Of a stretch of 53,937 nt of DNA, positions 4,403 through 23,669 are shown piece after piece. The notes beneath the pieces were generated by a model. That model saw only the letters and a list, made by a program, of their open reading frames with translations. It was not told the DNA's origin and searched no databases. The translations under genes were made by a program, and so were the position numbers. The DNA lies in NCBI GenBank assembly GCA_903899655.1, contig CAIUKF010000014.1, positions 1 to 53,937 of the forward strand, given 5' to 3'. This DNA is from an uncultured bacterium. GTDB lineage: Bacteria > Patescibacteriota > Saccharimonadia > Saccharimonadales > Saccharimonadaceae. The stretch's first letter is position 1, and each line of letters starts with the position of its first letter.

Positions 4403-5440
4403 TTAGTAATATAAATCGCGGTGTCGTTGACGGTATACTCGATGGGCAATCCGTTCGCCAGCTTTGACCCATATTTTGTAACTTCGGGGTTTAATTATTA
4501 AATCAAAACAGCCAACGTAATCGGTGATATTGGCATTAAAGCCGGCTTTAAAAGTGCCGAAACCATAATATGGATGGTTGGGGTTTTTGATTTGGTCAGA
4601 TGGTGGCGAGCCGTATAGGTCGTATTTGGTGACGCCCAGGGTTTTTAAATATTCGATAGCAAACTTTTCCAATAGGGCACTGACGCCGCGAACAGAATGT
4701 TGCCTAGAACTGGCGGCATCTTTGCGAGTGGCCTTGTTGCCCAAAATCATAATAAAGTCCATTGATAAAATTTCACCGTCGACAGAGGCAAAGATAAAAA
4801 TGCCATTACCCGCATTGTAGTGTGATTGCCAAAAAGTCTTAAAATAGTCAAAACTACGCAAATGTGATCGACCATTAATTGTCGCGACCATTAAATCGTA
4901 AAATATTTTGCAGTTCGCGTCATTTATTGGCACAACTTCAATTTTAATGTCAGCTTTTTGAGCTGAGCGGATGCTGGCGCGGGTTTTGGGTGAAAAGCTG
5001 GCAACGACGGTGTCGATATCAGCTGAAATATCGACAATGACGGTGTTAGCGGCTTGGACGGCGCGTGATTTAGGTAGATTTGATTTGCTTAGAAAACTTA
5101 TATTGTCTTCGGTCTCTAATAATTCCGATTCCATTTTGACGGTAAAAACATTGTTGGCTGCAGCAAATTCGCGCAATCTAGGTAATAATTTGCTTAATTC
5201 GTCAGTATTGTTGATGCCAGGCCCTTTTGGAACATACCAAAAGTTACCCAAAGTTGGGATTTTTCTTTGAAGAACTAAAATGTATAGATTATCAACGACT
5301 AAAAATCGAGTCGACCAGTTATTTGACCGTTTAGTATGGGCAAATTCTGTGGCCTGAAAAATATTACCACCATCAGGGTTGGTAATTACTAATGAATTCC
5401 AATTATCAATTTCTTGTTGTGAGGCAAAACGAGCTGTCAT
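4403..5440 (-). CDS. FemAB/FemX-family peptidoglycan bridge aminoacyltransferase
   Basis: A 345-residue protein with the double GNAT-fold pattern of the Fem family. These enzymes use aminoacyl-tRNA to add an amino acid to the stem-peptide side chain of lipid II. Motifs: WSTRFLVVD, FWYVPKGPGI (near residue 67), ASFSPKTRASIRSAQK (near 146), FIFASVDGEILSMDFI, and the conserved GVTKYDLYGSPP followed by YYGFGTFKAGFNANITDYVG. No transmembrane segment. Together with the short MurE-like ligase it makes this end of the window a cell-wall neighbourhood. The amino acid transferred cannot be read from sequence. Confidence 0.85.
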   Translation of the reverse strand: MTARFASQQEIDNWNSLVITNPDGGNIFQATEFAHTKRSNNWSTRFLVVDNLYILVLQRKIPTLGNFWYVPKGPGINNTDELSKLLPRLREFAAANNVFTVKMESELLETEDNISFLSKSNLPKSRAVQAANTVIVDISADIDTVVASFSPKTRASIRSAQKADIKIEVVPINDANCKIFYDLMVATINGRSHLRSFDYFKTFWQSHYNAGNGIFIFASVDGEILSMDFIMILGNKATRKDAASSRQHSVRGVSALLEKFAIEYLKTLGVTKYDLYGSPPSDQIKNPNHPYYGFGTFKAGFNANITDYVGCFDLIIKPRSYKIWVKAGERIAHRVYRQRHRDLYY

Positions 5441-7036: not shown

Positions 7037-8263
7037 TTAAACTTGATAAAGCGATTCAATTGGATCTTTGCGAGCGGCACGCATAGCAGGGTATAGGCCG
7101 AAAAGCGTGCCCATAACAACAGATATTGTTAAAGCGATTGCGACAATCTCCCAACTGAAGGCTGGGTCAAACGTCAAGAAATGGCTGATACCGAAGGCTA
7201 ATATGTAGCCGCATATATACCCACTGATGCCGCCACCAAGGCTGATAGCTAGTGACTCAATTAAAAATTGCCATGATATGTCAGAGTTGCTGGCGCCAAG
7301 AGCTTTGCGGATGCCGATTTCGCGGGTTCTTTCAGCGACAGTAACTAACATGATATTCATAATCCCAATACCGCCGACTATTAGTGATACGGCGGCGATT
7401 GCGGTTGATCCGCCAGCAATGGCGTAAAATAATTGGCTGGTTGGTTTGGCGATTTGCTCGCCAGTAAGGATTGAAAAATCATGTTCGCCGGCGTGGCTGT
7501 TAACTAAAGCTTTACTGATATCACTGATTGTTGCTTTTAAATCGGTATCAGGTTTAGTTTTGACATTAATTTGTTGAATTTGAGCGACATTATTATTCAA
7601 CTTTTTGCCACTGGCGAAGTTGATAATTGCGGTATTATCAAAATCAACTGAATTATAATTCATTGGATCGTTCAATTTTTTTAAGATACCAATGACAGTA
7701 AATGATTGATTATGTATGCTAAGGATTCGGCCGATTGAAGATTCGGTGCCAAAGACGTTAACTGACAGGTCTGATCCGACTACGACGACATTTTGGTTAA
7801 TACCGTTGTCTAAAAATTGTCCTTCGCGTAATTGAAGGTTTGATATATCAGCTAGACTGGGTGTTGAAGCCACAATTGGAGAGTTGATCGGTGCAACTGA
7901 ATCAGCTTTGATAGTGCCGCTCAATACCATCAATGGTGCGATTGATCTGACGTTTGTAATGTTGGTTATGTATGTAATGTCAGCTTCGGTTAATGTGCTA
8001 GCGGCATAGTCACGGTTTAATCCGGACTGTGTGATGCTGGCGATTGGGTCGGTTGTGGTGCCTGGGCGGATAACAGCAATATTGCCGCCAACAGAGCTAA
8101 TTTGATCACTAATAATTTTACTGGCGCCACTGCTGAGGGCTAAAATTGCGGTAATACTGGCTATACCGATTGTGACACCCAACATAGTTAGGAAACTGCG
8201 TACACGGCTGCTACGTAAAGATTGATAGGCATTCTGAGCATGATTGAGTAATAAAAAGCGCAT
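7037..8263 (-). CDS. MacB-type ABC transporter permease (FtsX-like)
   Basis: About 408 residues in the MacB/FtsX layout: an N-terminal transmembrane helix (RVRSFLTMLGVTIGIASITA), a large extracytoplasmic MacB-PCD domain of about 220 residues rich in Ile/Asn/Ser, then three C-terminal helices. The cytoplasmic coupling motif VAERTREIGIRKALGA is present. I place the start at the Met encoded at 8263 because it follows the ATPase stop by one base; the longer reading frame overlaps the ATPase and lacks family similarity. With the ATPase it forms a mechanotransmission-type system that could export peptides or respond to envelope stress. No MacA-like adaptor gene is nearby, which fits a monoderm cell. 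Confidence 0.88.
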   Translation of the reverse strand: MRFLLLNHAQNAYQSLRSSRVRSFLTMLGVTIGIASITAILALSSGASKIISDQISSVGGNIAVIRPGTTTDPIASITQSGLNRDYAASTLTEADITYITNITNVRSIAPLMVLSGTIKADSVAPINSPIVASTPSLADISNLQLREGQFLDNGINQNVVVVGSDLSVNVFGTESSIGRILSIHNQSFTVIGILKKLNDPMNYNSVDFDNTAIINFASGKKLNNNVAQIQQINVKTKPDTDLKATISDISKALVNSHAGEHDFSILTGEQIAKPTSQLFYAIAGGSTAIAAVSLIVGGIGIMNIMLVTVAERTREIGIRKALGASNSDISWQFLIESLAISLGGGISGYICGYILAFGISHFLTFDPAFSWEIVAIALTISVVMGTLFGLYPAMRAARKDPIESLYQV

Positions 8264-8264
8264 A

Positions 8265-9029
8265 TTATTTTTTATTCCTTTTTGTTTTACGGACTGGTTT
8301 TTTATGACGGCGATTTTTTTGTGGAGCGATGTGGCTTTTGGTATCAGTGTCAATTCGGCCGTCCAGCATCGTGATTACTCGGCTGGCGTAGGTTGTCAGG
8401 CGTGGATTATGTGTCACCATAATAATTGTGTTACCGCGTTTATGTAGGTCAGATAATTCTTCCATAATAATGTGGCTGGCACGTGAATCCAAATTGCCAG
8501 TTGGTTCGTCGGCCAAGATAATCGACGGTTCGTTAACTAAGGCACGTGCAATCGCGACTCGTTGAGTTTGCCCGCCCGACAGTTGATGCGGCATATAATA
8601 TTCACGTTCGTTCAAGTGAAAATTCCGTAATATTTCACTGGCAATTTTTAATCTTTTGGTGCGTATTATGCCTTTATAAATTAGAGGCAAGGCGACGTTT
8701 TCGATAACACTTAGCCTAGGTACCAGATTGAAATTTTGAAAAACAAAGCCGATTTGTTGACTACGGATTCGAGCTTGTTTGCGTTTCGAAATCGTATCAA
8801 CTGATTGGCCGTCCAATTCGTAGTCACCATCAAATGATCGGTCCAGTAAGCCTAAAATATTTAATAATGTTGTTTTTCCGCAGCCACTGGGACCCATAAT
8901 GGCGACAAATTCACCTTTTTTAATAGTCAGATTAATATGATCGATTGCAGAATGTTCGGCATCACCAATACCAAACCTTTTTTCAAGGCCACGTAAATGA
9001 ATTACTGGTGGTATGGTTACATCAGCCAT
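8265..9029 (-). CDS. MacB/LolD-type ABC transporter ATPase
   Basis: A 254-residue ATPase with Walker A GPSGCGKTT, Q-loop FVFQNFNLVPRLS, signature LSGGQTQRVAIARAL, Walker B IILADEPTGNLD and H-loop MVTHNP, all typical of the LolD/MacB group. The tail is very basic (rich in K/R/H over the last 25 residues). The Met at 9029 is preferred because a promoter (TTGCAG, 17 bp, CATAAT on the minus strand) ends 7 nt before it, a leaderless arrangement; an upstream in-frame Met at 9065 would lie inside the -35 region. It is coupled to the permease gene downstream. Confidence 0.92.
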   Translation of the reverse strand: MADVTIPPVIHLRGLEKRFGIGDAEHSAIDHINLTIKKGEFVAIMGPSGCGKTTLLNILGLLDRSFDGDYELDGQSVDTISKRKQARIRSQQIGFVFQNFNLVPRLSVIENVALPLIYKGIIRTKRLKIASEILRNFHLNEREYYMPHQLSGGQTQRVAIARALVNEPSIILADEPTGNLDSRASHIIMEELSDLHKRGNTIIMVTHNPRLTTYASRVITMLDGRIDTDTKSHIAPQKNRRHKKPVRKTKRNKK

Positions 9030-12116: not shown

Positions 12117-12704
12117 TTGATTCAAAAAGGGTTAAATCAAAATATATCTATGCGTAATATGTTATCTAAAATCGCTGCTACACCTAACAACATAGTTACA
12201 AAAAAGGACATATTAGCCACTGAAGCTAATTTAGTTGACGTTGGTAAAAGCCTAAAAAATAAAGTTAACAAACTTTTTAATGGGTCGTTGGCTATTAGGC
12301 AGGTGGCGGCAGGTTCAGATAATTCTTGCGAACAAGAGTTAGTAGCGTTAGGTAACTCGTTTTATGATGTTGAACGTTTTGGAATTAGGTTTGTAGCGTC
12401 GCCAAGGCACGCTGATATGCTGCTGGTCACAGGACCAGTTGCCAGAAATATGGCATCGGCATTAAAGAGTGCGTATGATGCGACACCTGATCCAAAAATT
12501 GTTGTTGCTGTTGGCGATGGCGCGATTGATGGTGGAATTTGGAAAGGTAACTATGCTGTAGAGGACGGCGTCAATGCGGTAATACCGGTTGATTATCAGA
12601 TTCCAGGCGATCCACCCGAACCAATCGAAATATTACATGCACTGTTAAATATAATGGAAGATATCGAGTTGAAATCAAACAAATTACGTCAGGATGGAAA
12701 ATAA
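12117..12704 (+). CDS. hyfI: Hydrogenase-4/complex-I small subunit homologue (HyfI/NuoB-like) lacking most cluster ligands
   Basis: Homologue of the 20-kDa small subunit that normally carries the proximal [4Fe-4S] (N2-type) cluster between electron donor and active site. The fold signature is clear: FGIRFVASPRHADMLLVTGP (88-107), PDPKIVVAVGDGAIDGG (124-140) and VIPVDYQIPGDPPEPIEIL (155-173). The four ligand positions read Asp68 (in GSDNSC), Cys71, Gly135 (canonical GDCA) and Asp165 (canonical PGCPP). Only one Cys remains, so a standard cluster cannot be held. The TTG at 12117 has no ribosome-binding site; the ATG at 12150 or 12159 may be the real start. It overlaps the next gene by 11 bp. Confidence 0.85.
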   Translation: MIQKGLNQNISMRNMLSKIAATPNNIVTKKDILATEANLVDVGKSLKNKVNKLFNGSLAIRQVAAGSDNSCEQELVALGNSFYDVERFGIRFVASPRHADMLLVTGPVARNMASALKSAYDATPDPKIVVAVGDGAIDGGIWKGNYAVEDGVNAVIPVDYQIPGDPPEPIEILHALLNIMEDIELKSNKLRQDGK

Positions 12705-14760
12705 TATGCTGGATATGATTGTATCACCTGTAAGTCTGGGGCTATTATTTGCTTTCTTTGGTGTTGGTATGGTTGGATCACTTTTGTTGCGTAAAAAGGA
12801 TGAGATTGCAAACGCTTGGAGTAACGTTTGGGTGGTGTTGGGTTCGATTTGGGGCATGTTGCTGGCATTGGGGGTATTAATAAATGGCTCAACCATCAGT
12901 AGCCAATTACAATTTTCAACTTTTACACAGTTGTCAATGAACGTACAGGTCGATCGATTATCGGCTTTTTTCATATTAATTATTAGCCTTGTAGCGCTGT
13001 TTGCATCAATCTATGGCATGGGCTATGTTAAAGAGTATTACAAAAAGTATAGTATCGGTGCCTTTGGCTTTTTTTATAATGCCTTTATCTTTGGCATGTT
13101 ACTGGTTGTAACGGCTTCAAACGGATTGTTATTCATGTTTGCTTGGGAAATAATGTCATTGGCGTCGTATTTTTTGGTCATTTTTGATAAGGATAATCGC
13201 GACAGTATAAAATCAGGTTATTTGTATTTCATTATGACTCATATCGGCGCGATGTTCATTTTGTTTGCTATATTTTTGTTATATAAATACACAGGTTCGT
13301 TCGACTTTACTGTAATTAAACAGCAATTTAGCACTATTCCGCAACTTGTTCAATATAGTGTGATTGGTTTAACTTTTGTAGGTCTGGGCGTCAAAGCTGG
13401 AATTATTCCATTTCACGTTTGGTTGCCATCTGCCCACCCAGCTGCACCATCACATGTTTCAGGTTTGATGTCGGGCGTGATGATCAAGACGGCTATTTAT
13501 ATGATGGTCAGATTTTATTTGGATATGTTTAGCCCTATACCTGTTGGTTTTGGTATAGTAGTCTTGATTATTGGTGCGATTTCGGCAGTTTTGGGTGTGC
13601 TTTACTCATTGACCGAGCACGATATTAAACGATTGTTGGCCTATTCGAGTATCGAGAATATTGGCATAATTTTGCTGGCGATTGGTAGTGCTTTGATTTT
13701 TTCAGCACTTGGTTATCATGATTTAATGTTGTTTGCCTTGGTTGCGGCATTGTTACACTCACTAAATCACGCTTTGTTTAAGTCATTACTGTTTTTTGGT
13801 TCGGGATCGATAATTCAATCGACTCACAGTCGTAACATTGAAAAATATGGCGGATTAATTAAGGCCATGCCACTCACAGCCGTGTTGTTTTTGGTTGGAT
13901 CAATGTCGATTGCTGCTTTGCCACCATTTAATGGTTTTATGAGCGAATGGTTAACTTTTCAATCACTTTTCGGTGGCGTTCAGATACACAGCGGTTACGT
14001 TGTTTGGGTATTTGTGTTTGGTGCCGGTATTTTGGCGCTTGTTAGCGGTTTGTCATTGGCGGCTTTTGTTGGTGCTTTTGGATCGACCTTTTTGGCGCGT
14101 CCACGCAGTGAAAATGCTAAACATGCCAAAGAATCGTCTGGTTGGATGATTGCTGGTATGACAGGACTAGCTGTTTTATGTTTAGCTGCTGGCGTTTGGT
14201 CGGGTGAAATAGTTAGTAAAGTCAAAGAAGTAGCTAGCGCTGTGACTTCAACTGACTTCAGTTTGTCGTTGCCGAATGTTGGCACAAGCGCGATTTCGGA
14301 TGTAGCGGGTAAAGCTACGATTTCGGCTCCGTTGATTTTAATACTCAGCATAGGGACTGTTGCTGTTATTTGGCTATTGGTGCGATATGGTGTTTATAGT
14401 AAACAACGTGTTCGTGTTGATAAGACTTGGGACTGTGGCACTGATTTGAATGGTCGTATGGAGATTACTGATTCTAGCTTTGCGCACTCACTAATTCGTA
14501 TATTTAAGCGCGTTCTTCGTCCGACGAATCAATACGATGTTGTCGCTGAAGACAAGCCGATTAATAAATATGCGCTGCCAAAATCTAGAACAATTTTGCT
14601 TGATATCAAAGACGTTTATTATGGCTATATTTATATGCCAATTTATAAGGCGATATTGGCATTTTCGCAATACATCAAGGCAATTCAAAGCGGTAGTGTT
14701 AACTTGTACGTGCTGTATATGTTTGCGATTTTGATAATTACTTTGGTGGTAGGAGTTTAG
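12694..14760 (+). CDS. hyfB: Hydrogenase-4-type antiporter-like membrane subunit HyfB (NuoL/M/N family)
   Basis: A 688-residue polytopic protein of the Mrp-antiporter/NuoL family, close in length to E. coli HyfB (672). The proton-path residues are intact: Glu152 in FAWEIMS, Lys234 in GLGVKAGIIPFHVWLPSAHP, Lys265, and Lys363 in LNHALFKSLLFFGSG. The lateral-helix-like C-terminal region contains DKTWDCGTD, typical of HyfB/HycC. It should form a proton channel in the cytoplasmic membrane. The start is at 12694, or at Met5 (12706), one base after the previous stop. Second gene of the I-B-C-E-F-G operon. Confidence 0.95.
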   Translation: MENNMLDMIVSPVSLGLLFAFFGVGMVGSLLLRKKDEIANAWSNVWVVLGSIWGMLLALGVLINGSTISSQLQFSTFTQLSMNVQVDRLSAFFILIISLVALFASIYGMGYVKEYYKKYSIGAFGFFYNAFIFGMLLVVTASNGLLFMFAWEIMSLASYFLVIFDKDNRDSIKSGYLYFIMTHIGAMFILFAIFLLYKYTGSFDFTVIKQQFSTIPQLVQYSVIGLTFVGLGVKAGIIPFHVWLPSAHPAAPSHVSGLMSGVMIKTAIYMMVRFYLDMFSPIPVGFGIVVLIIGAISAVLGVLYSLTEHDIKRLLAYSSIENIGIILLAIGSALIFSALGYHDLMLFALVAALLHSLNHALFKSLLFFGSGSIIQSTHSRNIEKYGGLIKAMPLTAVLFLVGSMSIAALPPFNGFMSEWLTFQSLFGGVQIHSGYVVWVFVFGAGILALVSGLSLAAFVGAFGSTFLARPRSENAKHAKESSGWMIAGMTGLAVLCLAAGVWSGEIVSKVKEVASAVTSTDFSLSLPNVGTSAISDVAGKATISAPLILILSIGTVAVIWLLVRYGVYSKQRVRVDKTWDCGTDLNGRMEITDSSFAHSLIRIFKRVLRPTNQYDVVAEDKPINKYALPKSRTILLDIKDVYYGYIYMPIYKAILAFSQYIKAIQSGSVNLYVLYMFAILIITLVVGV

Positions 14761-14761
14761 T

Positions 14762-15688
14762 ATGCAAGATTATATAATATACGCGGTTCAAGTTGTGTTA
14801 GTACCAGTAATGTCGCCACTGTTGGTCGGCATCATCAATAAATTGAAAGCAAAAATTCAAAGGCGCCAAGGGCCAAGTATTTTTCAGCAATATCGTAATA
14901 TTTGGAAGCTGCTTCACAAAGATGAAGTTATCAGCAGCGACGCATCATGGATTACTAGGGTCGCGCCATACCTGATTTTTGCGGTAACTGTTGTTGTCGG
15001 TATTAGTATTCCATTATTTAGTTCGGCTTTGACGTTGCCAACCGGAGAAATATTGACAGTAGTATATCTGTTGGCTATTGGCACATTCTTTATGGCTTTG
15101 TTGGGCATGGACGCTGGTGGCGCATTTGGTGGTTTTGGATCAAGTCGTGAAGTTACGGTTTCGGCTTTGGCTGAAGGTGTATTAATCTTTTCTTTCTTGC
15201 CACTGGTCCTGATTGCGGGTAGCACGAATTTATCAAATATAGTTCAAACTGTGGCTGCAAATTACAGCTATTCGATTGCACCAATTATCTTGGCATTCAG
15301 TGGTTTTATGGTCGCACTGCTGGCCGAAACAAAGCGTTTTCCGTTTGATAATCCTGATACTCACTTGGAATTGACGATGATTCATGAGGCGATGATTATT
15401 GAATGTTCAGGCAAGAGGTTAGCAATGATGGAATGGGCGGCTGCCAATAAGTTGTTTATATTTTCAGCTTTGGCGGTTACGATGTTTTTCCCAATTGGTG
15501 TAGCTGCCGACTTAAGTACCGTGTCAATAATTGTTGGGATTGTCAGCTTGCTGGTAAAAGTATTGCTAGTTGGTGTCTTTATCGCCATTCTTGAATCGAC
15601 AATTGCGAAGTTTAGGATTTTCAAGTTGCCTGATTTATTATTGACGGCGTTTATTATTAATATAGTTGCTTTGGGGTTAATGCTATGA
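14762..15688 (+). CDS. hyfC: Hydrogenase-4-type membrane subunit HyfC (NuoH family)
   Basis: A 308-residue membrane protein (E. coli HyfC has 315) that would anchor the peripheral arm to the membrane and link it to the antiporter-like subunits. Motifs: KIQRRQGPSIFQQYRNIWKL (31-50), GGFGSSREVTVSALAEG, and the acidic funnel ETKRFPFDNPDTHLELTMIH with Glu and Asp residues of the quinone/proton pathway retained. About eight transmembrane segments. Starts one base after hyfB and overlaps hyfE by 4 bp (ATGA). Confidence 0.95.
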   Translation: MQDYIIYAVQVVLVPVMSPLLVGIINKLKAKIQRRQGPSIFQQYRNIWKLLHKDEVISSDASWITRVAPYLIFAVTVVVGISIPLFSSALTLPTGEILTVVYLLAIGTFFMALLGMDAGGAFGGFGSSREVTVSALAEGVLIFSFLPLVLIAGSTNLSNIVQTVAANYSYSIAPIILAFSGFMVALLAETKRFPFDNPDTHLELTMIHEAMIIECSGKRLAMMEWAAANKLFIFSALAVTMFFPIGVAADLSTVSIIVGIVSLLVKVLLVGVFIAILESTIAKFRIFKLPDLLLTAFIINIVALGLML

Positions 15689-16338
15689 GTATTGAAAATC
15701 TATTTTTTCAGTTATGTGCCAGTCTGCTATTTTTGACAGTTATTTTGCTTCATATTGTTAAAAAGAATATTAGTGAAGTATTACTGTATGGAGTACAGTC
15801 AGTTGCGGTGGTGTTGTTGATGGGGTTGTCGCTGTTTAAGGTTAGTTCGTTGTCACTGATGGCGGTTTTAGTGATTATGTTGGTCGTAAAAGTTATATTA
15901 ACGCCAATATTCTTTACTAGAATTATCAATCAATACAAATTGAAATTTACAGACAGTCGATATCTAAGTACGCCAATAACTATGTTTGTTATTGCTTTAA
16001 TATTACTGTTGGTTGGTTCGGATGTCTTTAGACCATTGACTGAAATTGCGCCAGATTATAAAGCGTATTTGACGTTAGTTTTGGCGGCTATGTTGATATC
16101 GATATTTTTGATTACCAATCGTAAAAGTGTGGTATCTCAGGCGGTAGGTGTGTTGTCTTTAGAAAATAGCATTGTGATGTTTGCAATATTTGCTGGCCTC
16201 GAACAATCACCATTATTTCAACTTGGTATCATATTTGATATATTCATCTGGATATTATTGGCGGTAGTATTTGTGTCGATGATATTTAGGCATTTTGGTA
16301 CGTTGGATGCAACTAATATGAAGAATTTGAAGGGTTAA
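15685..16338 (+). CDS. hyfE: Hydrogenase-4-type membrane subunit HyfE
   Basis: A 217-residue membrane protein, nearly identical in length to E. coli HyfE (216). The HyfE family combines a NuoK-like fold with extra helices. About seven hydrophobic segments are visible; an SLENSIVMFAIFAGLEQSP stretch near residue 157 is typical of the family and contains the conserved Glu. Start overlaps the hyfC stop (ATGA), so translation is coupled. Confidence 0.9.
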   Translation: MSIENLFFQLCASLLFLTVILLHIVKKNISEVLLYGVQSVAVVLLMGLSLFKVSSLSLMAVLVIMLVVKVILTPIFFTRIINQYKLKFTDSRYLSTPITMFVIALILLLVGSDVFRPLTEIAPDYKAYLTLVLAAMLISIFLITNRKSVVSQAVGVLSLENSIVMFAIFAGLEQSPLFQLGIIFDIFIWILLAVVFVSMIFRHFGTLDATNMKNLKG

Positions 16339-16340
16339 TT

Positions 16341-17780
16341 ATGGAATTAATATTTATTGCAGTTTTAATCATCACAGCCATTGCCAGTTATTTTGGGCGT
16401 CGTATTAAAGTCGCTCAAACCTTATCAGTCATTGCCGCCTTGGTATCATTCGTTTGTGTTTCAGACATAGCGATTAAAGTATCAAACGATGGCAGCTACA
16501 GTCCATTCAAGTTTATTTATGTTGATTCTTTGGGCGCAATTATTATGCTGATTATTGCAACAGTTGGACTAGCGGCGATTATATATTCGATTGCGTATCT
16601 TGGTACTGAATTAAAGAAAAAAATAATTGATACAAAACAAATTCGATTGTATTTTGCGCTGGTCAACCTGTTTTTGGCAGCGATGTATCTGGCGGTTTCG
16701 TCCAGTAGCCCAATCTTTACATGGGTTTGTGTTGAAGCAACGACGTTATCGACTGCCTTATTGATTAGTTATTACAACAAACCTTCAGCTATGGAAGCAG
16801 CTTGGAAATATTTGATAATTAATTCAATTGGTTTGTTGTTGGGATTCTTTGGAACGTTGCTGTATTTTACAGTTTCACAAACTGTAGCCGCTGGTGAGTT
16901 TATTACTTGGCAGTCGCTAATCGCTAATGCTAGCAGTTTGAATCCAGTTATGACAAAAGTAGCCTTTATCTTTGTGCTAGTAGGTTACGGCACCAAAGCC
17001 GGTTTAGCACCAATGCACACCTGGATACCTGATGCGCATAGTAAAGCGCCATCACCAGTCAGCGCCTTATTGTCTGGAGTTTTGTTGAATGTAGCGATGT
17101 ACGTCATAATTCGATTCAAGACTGTAACTGATATTATTGTCGGCCCAGATTTTGCTAGTCGTTTATTAGTAATATTTGGCGCCATGTCAGTTGTCTTTGC
17201 GGCGATTATTATCGTTAATCAGCTGCACTATAAACGTATGATGGCCTATTCAAGCGTTGAAAACATGGGGATTATTGCCCTTGGTTTTGGTTTTGGCGGT
17301 ATTGCTACTGTGGCGGCAATATCTCATATGATTTATCACGCGTTGATTAAGTCATCACTGTTCTTCTCGTCTGGTAATTTAATGCTTAAATACAGTACGG
17401 GACACATTAAACTAGTAAAAGGTGTACTGAAGGCGGCTCCAGTCACTGGTGTCTTGTTACTGACTAGCGTGCTGGCGATTACAGGTATGCCGCCGTTCGG
17501 AATATTTTTCAGCGAATTCTTTACATTTACAGGTGGTATCAGTCAATATCCAGTCGTCGTGGTTATCGTGGTTGTTGCTATTGCGATTTTGTTTATCGGC
17601 TTTATGCGTAATACTGGCAGTATGTTGTTTGGTGATAAACCTAGTGACATCAAAACTGGTGAAAAAAATCTTTGGTTGATTGTTCCTCCAGCGGTGATGG
17701 TTTTGCTGGCCTTGGTTCTAAGTTTTTACATGCCACCATTTATTCAAACATTAATTCATAACGCAGCAGGGCAGATTTAG
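16341..17780 (+). CDS. hyfF: Hydrogenase-4-type antiporter-like membrane subunit HyfF (NuoN/M family)
   Basis: A 479-residue second antiporter-like subunit. Proton-path residues retained: Glu132 in WVCVEATTLS, Lys219 in VGYGTKAGLAPMHTWIPDAH, and Lys337 in YHALIKSSLFFSSGN. SSVENMGIIALGFGFGG and GMPPFGIFFSEF are family hallmarks. With HyfB and HyfC it would give a multi-channel ion-pumping membrane arm. Two bases separate it from hyfE and three from hyfG. Confidence 0.95.
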   Translation: MELIFIAVLIITAIASYFGRRIKVAQTLSVIAALVSFVCVSDIAIKVSNDGSYSPFKFIYVDSLGAIIMLIIATVGLAAIIYSIAYLGTELKKKIIDTKQIRLYFALVNLFLAAMYLAVSSSSPIFTWVCVEATTLSTALLISYYNKPSAMEAAWKYLIINSIGLLLGFFGTLLYFTVSQTVAAGEFITWQSLIANASSLNPVMTKVAFIFVLVGYGTKAGLAPMHTWIPDAHSKAPSPVSALLSGVLLNVAMYVIIRFKTVTDIIVGPDFASRLLVIFGAMSVVFAAIIIVNQLHYKRMMAYSSVENMGIIALGFGFGGIATVAAISHMIYHALIKSSLFFSSGNLMLKYSTGHIKLVKGVLKAAPVTGVLLLTSVLAITGMPPFGIFFSEFFTFTGGISQYPVVVVIVVVAIAILFIGFMRNTGSMLFGDKPSDIKTGEKNLWLIVPPAVMVLLALVLSFYMPPFIQTLIHNAAGQI

Positions 17781-17783
17781 TAT

Positions 17784-19349
17784 ATGAAAAAATTTAGTCA
17801 ATACCTACCAAAAAACGTATCGCCAAAATATCACGATAATATTGTCACTTTTGAAGTTGCACCAAATGACATCTTGAATATAGCCCATGTTTTACATACC
17901 GACAAAGGCTTGAATTTAAAGCTGCTAGATTGTACCGATAATCGCAAAGCGGATGGATGTTTTAAGATATTATATATTTTTGGTGTACCTAAAGAAAATA
18001 TCTTTATCGTTCCTTATGTTTGCGTAAAAGAAGGTGATAGTTTTGTTTCAATTACATCTGAAACTCAAGCCGCTAGTTATTACGAACGCAAAGTTCAATC
18101 GCTATTTGGGTTAAAAGTGACTGGTATTTCTGACAATCGTCCGCTACTGTTGCACGAAAATTGGCCTGATGGGCAATATCCACTTCGCAAGGATTTTAAA
18201 TACACAACTCGTCCTAAGGTTGCGTCGGGCACCTATGAGTACCAAAGGGTTGACGGTGATGGTATTTACGAGATTCCAGTTGGTCCGATTCACGCTGGTA
18301 TTATCGAACCGGGCCATTTTAGGTTTAGTATGGCTGGCGAGTCGATTATGTTACTGGAGGCGCGTCTGGGCTATGTACACAAGGGTAGCGAGAAGTTATT
18401 TGAACAACTTAGTCTCGATGGCAAAGTTAAATTGTCTGAGCGAATTTCTGGCGACAGCACATTCTCACATTCATTGGCGTTTTGTCAGGCTATCGAAAGT
18501 TTGGCAGGTCTAAAAGTGCCAAGTCGAGCGCAGTATTTGCGTGTTATCTATAGTGAACTTGAACGTCTAGCTAACCATTTTGGTGATATTGGTATGATTA
18601 TGTTGGATACAGGCTTTAGTTTTGGTGGTATAAATGGCCAAAGATTACGAGAAATTGTGATGCGTCGCAACAAACAACTGACTGGCAGCCGATTTTTGCG
18701 TTCAGTCAATACTATTGGTGGTGTTACGAAGGATATCGATGCCGATCAGATTAAGAATTTGTTGGCCGAGCTGGAAAGTGTTGAACTTGATTTTTCTGAA
18801 GTGATTGCAATCGCCAACAACAGCGCATCGTTTTTGGACAGGGTTAAAACTACCGGCAAATTGCCACATGATGTCGCCGTTGATTATGGTGTAGTTGGAG
18901 TCGCTGGACGGGCTGTTGGTTTGAAAAATGATGTCAGGGTTGATTATCCTTATGCGGCCTATCCCGAGCTGTCTAAATTTGATATCGCATCTGAAAAAAC
19001 AGGTGATGTTCAGGCCCGATTTAATATTCGTGTCAAAGAAGTTTATTCGTCACTGGCGATTATTAAAAATGCGCTTAAAACAATTCCTGGTGGGCAAGTC
19101 AAAGCTAAAAGTAGTAGTGTCAATTTAACCCCAGACAGCATTAGCATCAGTTGTGTTGAAGGTTGGCGCGGTGAGATAATCTATACAGTAATTACAGACT
19201 CAAAAGGTGAGATTGACCGCGTTATGGTGCGTGATCCGTCGTTTATTAACTGGCAAGTTGTTGGGTTTTGCGGACCGGGAAATATTGTGCCTGACTTCCC
19301 ATTGATTAATAAAAGTTTCAACCTGTCATATACTGGTCACGACGTTTAA
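17784..19349 (+). CDS. hyfG: Hydrogenase-4/complex-I large subunit homologue (HyfG/NuoCD-like) without NiFe ligands
   Basis: A 521-residue NuoC-NuoD fusion: an N-terminal 30-kDa-like domain (to about 165), then the large-subunit domain starting YEIPVGPIHAGIIEPGHFRF. Ni-Fe hydrogenases bind the metal through two CxxC motifs. The first (canonical ERICGIC) reads ERISGDSTFSH, giving Ser222 and Ser225. The second (canonical DPCxxC) reads SFNLSYTGHD, giving Ser515 and Gly518. All four cysteines are gone, so no NiFe centre can form. The rest of the fold is well conserved, including GPIHAG, ARLGYVHKG and ERLANHFGDIG, so the gene is under constraint rather than decayed. Last gene of the operon. Confidence 0.93.
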   Translation: MKKFSQYLPKNVSPKYHDNIVTFEVAPNDILNIAHVLHTDKGLNLKLLDCTDNRKADGCFKILYIFGVPKENIFIVPYVCVKEGDSFVSITSETQAASYYERKVQSLFGLKVTGISDNRPLLLHENWPDGQYPLRKDFKYTTRPKVASGTYEYQRVDGDGIYEIPVGPIHAGIIEPGHFRFSMAGESIMLLEARLGYVHKGSEKLFEQLSLDGKVKLSERISGDSTFSHSLAFCQAIESLAGLKVPSRAQYLRVIYSELERLANHFGDIGMIMLDTGFSFGGINGQRLREIVMRRNKQLTGSRFLRSVNTIGGVTKDIDADQIKNLLAELESVELDFSEVIAIANNSASFLDRVKTTGKLPHDVAVDYGVVGVAGRAVGLKNDVRVDYPYAAYPELSKFDIASEKTGDVQARFNIRVKEVYSSLAIIKNALKTIPGGQVKAKSSSVNLTPDSISISCVEGWRGEIIYTVITDSKGEIDRVMVRDPSFINWQVVGFCGPGNIVPDFPLINKSFNLSYTGHDV

Positions 19350-19410: not shown

Positions 19411-20559
19411 ATGCAAAAAGACGTATATCAACAATCATTAGAATTACACAAATTACATCACGGAAAAATCGAAACAGTTAGTAAAATAAAATTAGATTCT
19501 CGCGAAGTATTGGCGTTGGCTTATACACCAGGCGTAGCTGAAGTCTCGCGCGAGATTGGTCGCGATGCATCATTGGCGCGTGAATACACCTTAAAACGTA
19601 ATACAATTGCTATTGTCAGCGACGGGTCAGCAATACTTGGTTTAGGAAATTTAGGTGCGCTGGCGGCGATTCCAGTTATGGAAGGTAAGGCAGCGATTTT
19701 TAAAGAATTTGCTGGCGTTGACGCTTTTCCAATCTGTTTGGATACACAGGATACTGAAGAAATTATCAAAGCCGTCAAACAAATTGCGCCAGTTTTTGGC
19801 GGCATTAATTTAGAAGATATTTCAGCGCCAAGGTGTTTTGAAATTGAAAAACGTTTGCGCGCCGAAATGTCGATTCCAGTCATGCACGACGACCAGTGGG
19901 GTACTGCCACAGTTGTTTTGGCGGGTATGATTAACTCATTAAAATTAATGAATATCACCAAAGACGCAGTCAAGGTCGTAATTAACGGCGTTGGATCAGC
20001 TGGTGTTGCCACGGCCAGGTTGATGATGAGTTATGGTATCAAAAATATTTTGTTTTGTGACAGCCAAGGCATCATTCACGCTGGCAGGGCGGAACTGACG
20101 GCTGAAAAACAAGAACTAATTGATGCAAGTGTGGCGAAGCCGTTTGAAGGCATGCTAGTCGATGCCGTTAAGGGCGCTAATATTTTTGTTGGTGTGTCTA
20201 AACCGGGTGTTTTGACGCAGGATATGGTGCGAACAATGGCGCCAAAACCAGTTATTTTTGCCTTGTCTAACCCACAACCTGAAATATTGCCAGATGAGGC
20301 GTTGGCCGCTGGTGCATTGGCGGTTGCTACGGGTCGCAGTGATTTTCCAAATCAATTGAATAATTCACTGGTTTTTCCTGGTGTATTTAAGGGTATGTTA
20401 GAAGCTAATATTCCGCAGTTCAAGATAGAGATGTTCAGTAGTGTGGCGCAGGCTTTGGCTGATTCAGTTGTTGATTTGTCGCCAACTAAAATTTTGCCAT
20501 CGATGTTCGATAGTCAAGTGGTAACGGTTGTATCAGAGACTGTCAAAAAATTTGCTTAA
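19411..20559 (+). CDS. Malic enzyme (NAD(P)-dependent, short bacterial form)
   Basis: A 382-residue cytoplasmic enzyme catalysing oxidative decarboxylation of malate to pyruvate with NAD(P)H production. Evidence: LALAYTPGVAEVSREI with the catalytic Tyr, VSDGSAILGLGNLG, LEDISAPRCFEIE (metal-binding Glu/Asp), PVMHDDQWGTA, the Rossmann motif INGVGSAGVA, and VIFALSNPQPEI. Length is that of the short form without the PTA domain. Coenzyme preference is not decided by what I can see. A TATAAT at 19364-19369 is followed by a hairpin (about 19378-19399); a second -10-like TAAAAT lies 6 nt before the ATG. Confidence 0.93.
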   Translation: MQKDVYQQSLELHKLHHGKIETVSKIKLDSREVLALAYTPGVAEVSREIGRDASLAREYTLKRNTIAIVSDGSAILGLGNLGALAAIPVMEGKAAIFKEFAGVDAFPICLDTQDTEEIIKAVKQIAPVFGGINLEDISAPRCFEIEKRLRAEMSIPVMHDDQWGTATVVLAGMINSLKLMNITKDAVKVVINGVGSAGVATARLMMSYGIKNILFCDSQGIIHAGRAELTAEKQELIDASVAKPFEGMLVDAVKGANIFVGVSKPGVLTQDMVRTMAPKPVIFALSNPQPEILPDEALAAGALAVATGRSDFPNQLNNSLVFPGVFKGMLEANIPQFKIEMFSSVAQALADSVVDLSPTKILPSMFDSQVVTVVSETVKKFA

Positions 20560-20573
20560 ATAACATTATTTGT

Positions 20574-20688
20574 GTCAAAAACTCCTCGGGTCCTGCCGAC
20601 CAGTTTCCCCTAATATTTTTTTAACGATTACATTAAAAAGAATATCAGGGGCTCCCCACTGGACGTCACCCGCGGAACAGTTTTTGAC
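20574..20688. ncRNA. Structured intergenic element A (paralogue of 33264-33351)
   Basis: Fills most of the gap between malic enzyme and zwf. On the minus strand the core (20672 to 20587) begins CGGGTGACGT and ends GGCAGGACCCG. It folds as P1 CGGGT/ACCCG, P2 CCAGT/ACTGG, P3 CCCC/GGGG extended by TGATATT/AATATTA, and an apical TTTTTAA/TTAAAAA stem. A perfect 10-bp inverted repeat, GTCAAAAACT (20574-20583) and AGTTTTTGAC (20679-20688), brackets the core. The strand transcribed is not known. Element B at 33264-33351 has the same ends but different, compensated stems. No Rfam family recognised. Confidence 0.55.
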
Positions 20689-20716
20689 TATTAAAAGGTG
20701 TATAATTATTACAGTT

Positions 20717-22000
20717 ATGATTACAAAATTACTTATTTTTGGTATTACGGGTGATTTGGCGACGCGTAAATTGTTGCCGGCGCTAGAACAAATTATTAGT
20801 ACGGGCAATTTTAATGATTTGTCGGTGATTGGTGTGTCGCGTCACGAGGTTAATCAATCTGATTTATTTGTGCATTGTGGCAATAAGACCTTTTTAGATG
20901 GTAAATTATCGATTTTTACGATGGATTTGGCGTCAGCTGATGAGTATTTAAGGTTGAAGCAGTATGTTGCGCTGGGTGACGACGAACAATTGTTGATTTA
21001 TATGGCCGTACCGCCACTGTCAACGGCGCAGATCGTCGACTTTTTGGGTGAAGCCGGTATTAATACGCCAAATGTAAAAATTTTGTTCGAAAAGCCATTC
21101 GGTATTAATTTAGAATCAGCCGAAAAGCTGATTGAACAAACCGCTAATCATTATCAAGAGCAACAGATTTATCGGATTGACCATTATTTAGCCAAAGAGA
21201 TGGCACAAAATATTATTGCCTTTAGGGCACGTAACGCTTTGTTTTACCATGTTTGGAATAATAATTTTATTGAATCAGTCGAGATTGTGTCACTGCAGAC
21301 TGGCGGTATTGATGGTCGCGCGCAATTTTATGAACAAACTGGCGCTTTACGCGATTTAGTTCAAGGACATTTGATGCAACTGCTAACTTTGACTTTGATG
21401 GATATCCCACAGGGACTTGAATGGGAAAGGATGCCAGAATTACGTTTAGCGGCTTTAAACCAATTACAGCCTGTTGATCCCGGTAAAGTTGTTCGGGCGC
21501 AATACGAAGGCTATAAAGAAGAAGTGAACAATAACGATAGCCAGGTTGAGACTTTTGTATCAATCGAGATGTCGTCTAATCAGCCAAATTGGGTTGGCGT
21601 GCCGATTCGTTTAACAACTGGCAAACAATTGTCTGAAACGACCGCCGAAATTCGAATTCGTCTAAAAACTAGCAACGGCGCTCAAAGTAACTGTTTAGTC
21701 TTTAAAATTCAGCCAAATGAAGGTATTAACATCGAATTATTTGTCAAAAAACCTGGTTATAGTCGTGAATTTGAATCACGCAACCTAAGTTTCAATTATG
21801 AAAGTGATGTTAAATTACCCGATGCATACGAACAGGTACTAGTCGATGCAGTTTCTAGCGAAAAAAGCTTATTTACGGGTAGTGATGAAGTACTGCGTAG
21901 TTGGCAAATATTAAAGCCAATTCAAGATGACTGGAACAGTTGGCAGCAACAGCCAAAAACCTATCCAAAGGGCAGTTCAGCTCAATCAATTTTAGCGTAG
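20717..22000 (+). CDS. zwf: Glucose-6-phosphate 1-dehydrogenase
   Basis: First enzyme of the oxidative pentose phosphate pathway: glucose-6-P to 6-phosphogluconolactone with NAD(P)H. About 427 residues. Motifs: LLIFGITGDLATRKLLPAL (nucleotide binding), LFEKPFGINLESAEKL, catalytic YRIDHYLAKEMAQNI, and RLTTGKQLSE. It is shorter than the usual 480-510, mostly in loops. The ATG at 20717 is preferred because TATAAT (20701-20706) ends 10 nt upstream; the open frame runs 49 codons further back through structured element A, which is implausible as protein. The next pathway steps, pgl and gnd, lie 2-3 kb away on the opposite strand. Confidence 0.93.
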   Translation: MITKLLIFGITGDLATRKLLPALEQIISTGNFNDLSVIGVSRHEVNQSDLFVHCGNKTFLDGKLSIFTMDLASADEYLRLKQYVALGDDEQLLIYMAVPPLSTAQIVDFLGEAGINTPNVKILFEKPFGINLESAEKLIEQTANHYQEQQIYRIDHYLAKEMAQNIIAFRARNALFYHVWNNNFIESVEIVSLQTGGIDGRAQFYEQTGALRDLVQGHLMQLLTLTLMDIPQGLEWERMPELRLAALNQLQPVDPGKVVRAQYEGYKEEVNNNDSQVETFVSIEMSSNQPNWVGVPIRLTTGKQLSETTAEIRIRLKTSNGAQSNCLVFKIQPNEGINIELFVKKPGYSREFESRNLSFNYESDVKLPDAYEQVLVDAVSSEKSLFTGSDEVLRSWQILKPIQDDWNSWQQQPKTYPKGSSAQSILA

Positions 22001-22082
22001 AAAAAACAACATACCACACTAGATGTAGCGTAATGTAATATTTGCGTGCTACAATGAAATCCCATGGAGATTATAAAAATTC

Positions 22083-23669
22083 ATGGCTAAAAAACAGAAA
22101 TACATATTTGTAACTGGGGGCGTGTTATCAGGGGTAGGAAAAGGTGTCACCGCGGCTAGTATCGGTGCCGTATTACAGGCCAAAGGTGTTAAAGTTTCAA
22201 TTCAAAAGTGCGACCCGTATCTGAATGTAGATGCGGGCCTTTTGAATCCTAGGGAACATGGCGAATGCTTTGTAACGCGTGATGGTGCCGAGACTGACTT
22301 GGATTTGGGTCATTACGAACGATTCTTGGATATTGAATTAACACAAAAAAGCGCTACTTTGGCTGGTAGGCTTTTATTTGATTTGCTGAATGATGAACGA
22401 GCTGGCAAATTCGAAGGTCAAACCGTTCAGTTGGTGCCGCATTTAACTAAATCAATTCAAACTGCAATACTAGAATCTGCCGAAACTGGCGATAGCGATA
22501 TTCACATTGTTGAAATTGGTGGTACGGTTGGGGATTACGAAGGCTTGAGTTTTGTTGAAGCGATTCGCGAATTTTCGCAACGTGTCGGCCGTCAAAACTG
22601 TTTGTTTGTTCATGTTGTTTACGTGCCATTTATCAACACTAGTAAAGAGTTTAAAACCAAACCAGCTCAGAATGCGTTGAAAGATTTGCGTGGTTTTGGA
22701 ATTTTCCCAGACGCCGTAGTTGTTAGGACCGACACGCCAGCGCCAGCCGTAATTGCTAAGAAAATTAGCTTGTTTGGCGGCGTACCCGAAGAAAATGTTC
22801 TGTTGATGCCAAATGCCGATACAGTTTATCGAGTGCCGTTGATTTTGGCTGAAAGCCAACTAAGTAATCTGTTATCTGATTTTTCGGGCAACGACAAAGA
22901 GCCTGATTTGTCGGCTTGGAAAACAATTGTTAAACGTCAAACCAGTAAACCCAGCAAATTAGTGACGGTTGGGTTGGTCGCTAAGTATATTGATAACGAA
23001 GACACTTATATGTCGATTGTTGAAGCCCTAAAAGCAGCCGCTTGGCGTGAAAAAGTTGCCCTAAAACTTAAATGGATTAACGCCGAAATTGCGACTAAAA
23101 ATGATTTTAAATCAGTTGATGCGATTGTTGTGCCAGGTGGATTTGGTAAGCGTGGTATCGAAGGCAAAATTGACGCTGCCAGATATGCGCTGGACAACGA
23201 TGTGCCATATTTAGGTATTTGTTTAGGTTTGCAGGCGGCAGTAATTGCCAGCGCTCGCAAAGCTGGTCTAAAAGCCGCGCACAGTACCGAATTTATGCCT
23301 GAATCTAAACAAGATGTTGTCTATATTATGAACGGCCAAGCCGGTAAAGAATCGACCGGTGGTACATTGCGGCTGGGTGATTATGCTGCAAAATTACAAA
23401 AAGGATCATTGGTCGCCAAAACTTACGGATATTTAGATATTGTCGAACGTCATCGTCATCGATACGAAGTTAATCAAAAGTTTTTGGCCGAAATTAACAA
23501 AGGCGGGCTAGTCGTTAGCGGTTTATCACCAGATGGAAAATTGGTTGAATATATCGAAGCGCCAAAAAATAAATATTTCGTCGCTACCCAAGCTCACCCT
23601 GAATTTCGTTCTCGTCCAACCAAGCCACATCCATTGTTTGTTGGGTTGATAAAAGCTAGCGTTAAATAG
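22083..23669 (+). CDS. pyrG: CTP synthase
   Basis: Converts UTP to CTP with glutamine-derived ammonia. 528 residues, full length. Synthetase domain: KYIFVTGGVLSGVGKGV, KCDPYLNVDAG, HIVEIGGTVGDYEG. Glutaminase domain: VVPGGFGKRGIEGK, PYLGICLGLQ with the nucleophilic Cys, and ATQAHPEFRSRP with catalytic His and Glu. It has a proper leader: TACAAT about 34 nt before the ATG and a GGAG tract. The stop abuts the stop of the convergent gnd gene. Confidence 0.97.
   Translation: MAKKQKYIFVTGGVLSGVGKGVTAASIGAVLQAKGVKVSIQKCDPYLNVDAGLLNPREHGECFVTRDGAETDLDLGHYERFLDIELTQKSATLAGRLLFDLLNDERAGKFEGQTVQLVPHLTKSIQTAILESAETGDSDIHIVEIGGTVGDYEGLSFVEAIREFSQRVGRQNCLFVHVVYVPFINTSKEFKTKPAQNALKDLRGFGIFPDAVVVRTDTPAPAVIAKKISLFGGVPEENVLLMPNADTVYRVPLILAESQLSNLLSDFSGNDKEPDLSAWKTIVKRQTSKPSKLVTVGLVAKYIDNEDTYMSIVEALKAAAWREKVALKLKWINAEIATKNDFKSVDAIVVPGGFGKRGIEGKIDAARYALDNDVPYLGICLGLQAAVIASARKAGLKAAHSTEFMPESKQDVVYIMNGQAGKESTGGTLRLGDYAAKLQKGSLVAKTYGYLDIVERHRHRYEVNQKFLAEINKGGLVVSGLSPDGKLVEYIEAPKNKYFVATQAHPEFRSRPTKPHPLFVGLIKASVK

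Follow-up and report, generated by a model that had tools for sequence, protein, structure and literature searches.

A hydrogenase-4/complex I-like operon of CPR bacteria with lost redox-centre ligands in its large and small subunits

What can a complex built like a group 4 hydrogenase do once the ligands of its metal centres are gone? The question is raised by a contig of an uncultured Saccharimonadaceae bacterium (CAIUKF010000014.1; 53,937 nucleotides, the whole stretch analysed, termed the window below), in which six contiguous and co-directional genes (12117-19349, forward strand) stand in the order HyfI-B-C-E-F-G and encode a core of group 4 hydrogenase/complex I type.

The operon and its lost metal sites

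Pfam and NCBIfam matches assign the six ORFs to NuoB/HyfI, HyfB, NuoH/HyfC, HyfE, HyfF and NuoCD/HyfG, respectively. The NuoB-like small subunit HyfI (12117-12704, +; 195 aa; Pfam Oxidored_q6, 3e-25) is numbered here from a TTG start at 12117, while its true start may be the ATG at 12150 (M12). It is followed on the same strand by the NuoL-like antiporter subunit HyfB (12694-14760; 688 aa), the NuoH-like HyfC (14762-15688; 308 aa), the NuoK-like membrane subunit HyfE (15685-16338; 217 aa), the NuoM-like antiporter subunit HyfF (16341-17780; 479 aa) and the NuoCD-like large subunit HyfG (17784-19349; 521 aa). Within the operon there are no genes of HyfA, HyfH or NuoEFG type, nor of the NuoEFG/NuoI input module of respiratory complex I. 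A malic enzyme gene (19411-20559, +), putatively co-transcribed, lies 61 bp 3′ of the operon; the co-directional stretch that it opens (19411-23669) also holds a glucose-6-phosphate dehydrogenase and a CTP-synthase-like ORF, the last named by eye from its translation.

The proteins were aligned with the solved E. coli FHL, Pyrococcus MBH and complex I, and with E. coli Hyf/Nuo. HyfG reads ERISGDS at residues 219-225 where hydrogenases have RICGxC, with S222-G223-D224-S225 (18447-18458, +) in place of CGxC, and SFNLSYTGHD at 511-520 where hydrogenases have DPCxxC, with S515-Y-T-G518 (19326-19337, +) in place of CxxC. In HyfI, the first two cluster-ligand positions (CxxC) are D68 and C71 (codons 68 to 71, 12318-12329, +), the third is G135 (12519-12521, +) and the fourth D165 (12609-12611, +), leaving one ligand of four, C71, which is the only cysteine of the protein. 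The four NiFe cysteines and the proximal [4Fe-4S] ligands of a group 4 [NiFe]-hydrogenase are thus missing from window HyfG and HyfI, respectively, and so are the tandem-Cys N2 ligands of NuoB in respiratory complex I. A first-pass annotation made from the sequence alone had described the ORFs, residues and coordinates of this operon, the loss of both NiFe CxxC motifs and the retention of only Cys71 next to Asp68, Gly135 and Asp165; ORF calls and alignments agree with it on each of these. It had also allowed that a sequencing correction or programmed frameshift might restore the cysteines, or that an intact second hyfI/hyfG copy might exist. Sequencing error, frameshift and chance are ruled out, since every relative read from the Candidate Phyla Radiation (CPR) has changes at these same sites and all reading frames are open; nor was an intact second copy found, the genome (97% complete) having a single PF00346 and a single PF01058 match.

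The remainder of the complex appears well preserved. AlphaFold models (pLDDT 94 for HyfI; 88 for HyfG, low in the stretch 151-197) and Foldseek hits (HyfI to MBH-J, TM by target 0.89, and to FHL HycG; HyfG with E. coli HycE as its top hit, TM 0.88) predict intact folds for both HyfI and HyfG. Along the ion path, charged residues are as in E. coli HyfB/C/F, namely E152, K234, H359, K363 and E418 in HyfB, E138, D196, E203 and E214 in HyfC, and E132, K219 and E392 in HyfF, the last being replaced by K in some CPR rows. Between relatives dN is 0.15-0.46 and dS is either saturated or 1.5-5.4, so that dN/dS is about 0.05-0.13 for the pairs with an estimable dS, all of them distant (best identity between different genomes 75%). 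Selection is therefore purifying wherever it could be gauged, with no sign of the relaxation across the clade that the annotation had named as a test of its view, and its statement that the sequence is conserved rather than decaying holds. Intact channel residues together with purifying selection favour ion translocation, as the annotation had suggested for the core.

A CPR branch of the Ehr complexes

The missing cysteines of the large subunit are not peculiar to this locus. Energy-converting hydrogenase-related (Ehr) complexes, CPR and non-CPR, lack the NiFe cysteines in every row of our alignment, and an earlier report already describes a CPR Ehr clade with missing metal-binding cysteines (Jaffe 2020, PMC7304191). 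The complexes described there resemble ours in their large subunit without NiFe cysteines and their Mrp-like membrane subunits, and our CPR sequences very likely belong to the same clade. That study analysed large-subunit sequences, and its passage on the clade mentions only metal-cofactor-binding cysteines. The CPR large subunit is likewise group 4-like without NiFe ligands and nests among Ehr in the tree, and Mrp/NuoL-type membrane subunits are encoded in the same operon.

The small subunit is where the CPR proteins part from the family. Non-CPR Ehr complexes keep the [4Fe-4S] ligands in HyfI, whereas CPR Ehr complexes do not: among 53 non-CPR relatives (Nitrospira, Rokubacteria, Acidobacteria, archaea and others) each HyfI read has retained its cysteines (CxxC...C...C), apart from a single partial exception in a Rokubacteria locus (L087; HyfI at 4418-4924), where the first cluster Cys is replaced (GSPNCCE) and which is a possible intermediate. 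In all CPR rows read the ligands are replaced; D, S or T stands at position 68, D or G at 135 and D or N at 165, and a Cys is kept at 71 in 53% of the rows. The 48 HyfI columns conserved at 85% or more in non-CPR Ehr fall below 50% in CPR at only four sites, C68, P81, C135 and C165. The Ehr-specific HyfG residues S222, D224, N513, S515 and G518 are kept at 96-100% in CPR, and the HyfG pocket is the same in Ehr with and without the adjacent HyfI cluster. Replacement ligands elsewhere in the complex were rejected, as no suitably placed conserved Cys column exists across the six CPR subunits; HyfB C581 alone is invariant, and HyfG C234 is conserved at 81%. The annotation's claim that the operon goes beyond Ehr is consequently right for the small subunit, whose loss is CPR-specific, but not for the large subunit, whose cysteine loss is common to the whole family; the substitutions that it proposed to check among Saccharibacteria are fixed across CPR. 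The CPR complex is thus an Ehr variant that departs from one Ehr expectation, a redox-active cytoplasmic cap. Loss of the small-subunit ligands is the new part, loss of the NiFe cysteines being what defines known Ehr. The literature found holds no report of the small-subunit loss or of the ATP synthase and carbonic anhydrase linkages described below; some subscription papers on Ehr lay outside this search and we make no claim of priority.

In one CPR locus (L034, genome G557), which forms a long branch and differs in gene order, the HyfI ORF (about 7659-8408, minus strand) carries an N-terminal ferredoxin-like Cys motif (CSFCGECAFKCP) and has lost the HyfI cluster ligands. A set of sister proteins with an Ehr-like C-terminus (L061, L063, L066, L069, L076, L081, L084, L107, L114 and L116) has all four NiFe cysteines (PDFPLINKSFELCYSC type).

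The first-pass annotation had proposed a comparison across many Saccharibacteria, yet among 393 genomes of the window's class just 3, the window genome included, have a full-length HyfG homologue (a fourth match is a weak fragment of 54 residues). A sample of the phylum gave matches in 16 of 380 genomes, including fragments and genuine hydrogenases, and CPR carriers are patchy, being scattered over lineages of which Saccharibacteria are not the main ones. A scan of the collection found at least 583 relatives, and the best 80 of these, which were retained, are from Nitrospira, Rokubacteria, Acidobacteria, Verrucomicrobia, Bacillota, archaea and others. In a first quick tree CPR monophyly was unclear, owing to the long-branch row L034 and to two CPR groups; a mixture-model tree of 47 rows with L034 left out recovers CPR as one clade (support 99/96), and a single loss is therefore the simplest history. 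A record labelled Thermoleophilia (Actinomycetota; L050) contains a CPR-type redox-less operon nested within the CPR clade, a case of mis-binning or transfer.

Compared with E. coli hydrogenase-4 and formate hydrogenlyase, subunits B, C, E, F, G and I are homologous and the channel residues alike, but the CPR complex lacks HyfA, HyfD, HyfH, the NiFe site and the proximal cluster. Could the carriers simply be unable to build clusters? In the window genome SufB, NifU/IscU, Fer4_7 ferredoxin and COX1 are all without a match; it has one UbiA match and one radical SAM match, and because of the latter some Fe-S use is likely. Both SufB and NifU/IscU are missing from 5 of 13 carrier genomes, and at least one is found in the other 8, so the loss across CPR is not accounted for by an inability to assemble clusters.

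ATP synthase linkage and rival readings

Since NiFe site, proximal cluster and input subunits are all absent, there is a strong case from the sequences that electron transfer as in the relatives would not be possible, and the annotation's notion of a redox-silent complex is well supported by ligand losses that extend over all CPR rows read. The annotation further considered the complex possibly ATP-independent, and here the genomic context points otherwise. In a stricter tally, which required 2 kb or more of upstream sequence in the CPR loci, F-type ATP synthase genes adjoin the operon at about 9 of 16 of these and at 0 of 43 non-CPR loci (L136 and L051 come on top); an earlier tally of 10/18 against 0/46 gave a Fisher p of 3e-7, to be taken as a guide only, as the genomes are related and CPR genomes small. 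The ATP synthase genes lie directly upstream on the same strand in L040, L041, L068, L071, L094 and L136 (genome G385), and slightly farther upstream on the same strand in L024 and L033. L028/L046, L032 and L051 have them close by in other orientations. The window operon has no ATP synthase beside it, and the intact ATP synthase operon of its genome is on another contig. This linkage argues that the complex acts on the proton circuit.

We consider that the complex probably moves ions without redox chemistry. Our preferred reading, held tentatively and at not quite even confidence, is that of an ion translocator which is redox-silent and coupled to the gradient of protons at the F-type ATP synthase. 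The complete core conserved in CPR bacteria, made up of HyfC, HyfE, the HyfG/HyfI cap and two antiporter-like subunits, keeps the ion path and has lost every known set of metal ligands; the gradient made or used by the ATP synthase would couple to this translocator, and the HyfG pocket with the acidic HyfI residues could act as a proton-loading or ligand-sensing cap.

The main rival, a serious possibility though on the unlikely side, casts the complex as an Mrp-like cation/proton antiporter that keeps pH and Na+/K+ in balance; the cap would then only stabilise or gate the membrane part, and the carbonic anhydrase neighbours would reflect pH housekeeping. Mrp antiporters are alike in having antiporter-like subunits without redox, and to our knowledge they have no HyfG/HyfI homologues. 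The charge relays intact in both antiporter-like subunits, a proton gradient supplied through the ATP synthase linkage and the lack of a partner enzyme common to all loci among the operon neighbours all suit this reading; the near-invariance of HyfG S222, D224, N513, S515 and G518 exceeds the needs of a passive cap, however, and the carbonic-anhydrase-like neighbours recur. If the complex were still a redox enzyme, its HyfG pocket would have to be fed by a flavin, a quinone or another non-Fe-S carrier, or by a docking protein partner. We regard this as unlikely: the pocket is indeed the same as in Ehr with a HyfI cluster, the window genome has its UbiA-family match and one relative a terminal oxidase, but the operon is devoid of HyfA/HyfH/NuoEFG-type genes, a search of the loci for a shared redox partner next to the operon found none, the ligand replacements are mostly Asp, Thr or Gly, and among the 13 carrier genomes 12 have no match to a terminal oxidase, 8 none to UbiA and 10 none to Fer4_7.

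A primary pump powered by a non-redox step in the HyfG pocket, such as ligand binding, hydration or decarboxylation, would fit the remodelled and conserved pocket and the malic enzyme that adjoins the window operon; it is quite improbable, given that the pocket has no recognised catalytic residues for such chemistry and that malic enzyme was not seen as an operon neighbour at the other loci. Least credible by far is a degenerating Ehr remnant, for which the lost cofactor ligands and patchy distribution might speak: all six frames are open, the ordered gene cluster is kept across many CPR lineages, and decay is rejected on the low dN/dS, where measurable.

A redox-silent translocator of the kind that we prefer would be of wider use. 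The mechanism that links redox chemistry to distant ion pumping in complex I is debated, and a natural redox-free version with cap, central-axis residues and antiporters is a test object for the role of the cap without electrons. For CPR bacteria, many of which do not respire, it points to a means of using or balancing the proton circuit alongside the ATP synthase. The sameness of the HyfG pocket with and without a neighbouring cluster also bears on Ehr function.

Carbonic-anhydrase-like neighbours

In six CPR loci carbonic-anhydrase-like genes lie next to the operon, several of these calls being motifs or Pfam scores under the cut-off. The one call to pass is a Pro_CA_2 protein directly after HyfG in L068; CsoSCA-like proteins in L094 and L032 and a CDCA-like protein in L046 fall below the cut-off, and L024, L025 and a second L032 gene show the zinc-site pattern CxD/ExR...H..C. 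A strict motif scan of 208 flanking ORFs placed all four CPR matches outside the operon among its immediate neighbours (P about 0.001, post hoc). Nothing significant was found when three carbonic-anhydrase-like neighbours were searched against PDB sequences, and no carbonic anhydrase lies beside the window operon, where the next gene is the malic enzyme.

By analogy, we would give about a quarter of our credence to a tie between the complex and CO2/bicarbonate chemistry. The specific version, in which the ATP-synthase-linked proton gradient would drive vectorial CO2 hydration or bicarbonate accumulation via recruited carbonic anhydrases, is doubtful. One parallel is DAB (DabA/DabB; DAB2), a PMF-driven carbonic anhydrase with redox-free machinery of NuoL type, for which use of the proton gradient is proposed (PMC13144422); the CPR complex would be alike in its redox-free NuoL-type machinery and, in six loci, has a carbonic-anhydrase-like gene as its neighbour. 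DAB consists of one NuoL-like subunit and DabA (PF10070), whereas the CPR complex has six subunits with a HyfG/HyfI cap; DabB2 lacks the ion-pair motifs that HyfB and HyfF here keep, and the CPR neighbours are unrelated to DabA by Pfam, with no PF10070 match among those scanned. Complex I architecture is also coupled to CO2 hydration in cyanobacterial NDH-1MS (PMC6981117), which is redox driven, unlike the proposed redox-silent CPR complex. If the CO2-hydration reading is true, the remodelled HyfG pocket of Ehr generally need not accept electrons.

That said, part of the carbonic anhydrase link may belong to the ATP synthase and not to Ehr, because Ehr-less relatives of the window's class also carry such a cassette: in L142, L143 and L144 (genomes G101, G322 and G367) a MIP aquaporin and either one or two carbonic-anhydrase-like genes come after the ATP synthase operon. 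In Ehr-carrying genomes, ATP synthase loci not linked to the Ehr operon gave no match to the known carbonic-anhydrase-like set or motif, and the ATP synthase operon of the window genome, on its other contig, has no carbonic anhydrase. Genome G445 has a carbonic-anhydrase-like gene at its Ehr operon, whereas its ATP synthase locus showed none. The Ehr operon of G204 lies between the carbonic-anhydrase-like gene and the aquaporin.
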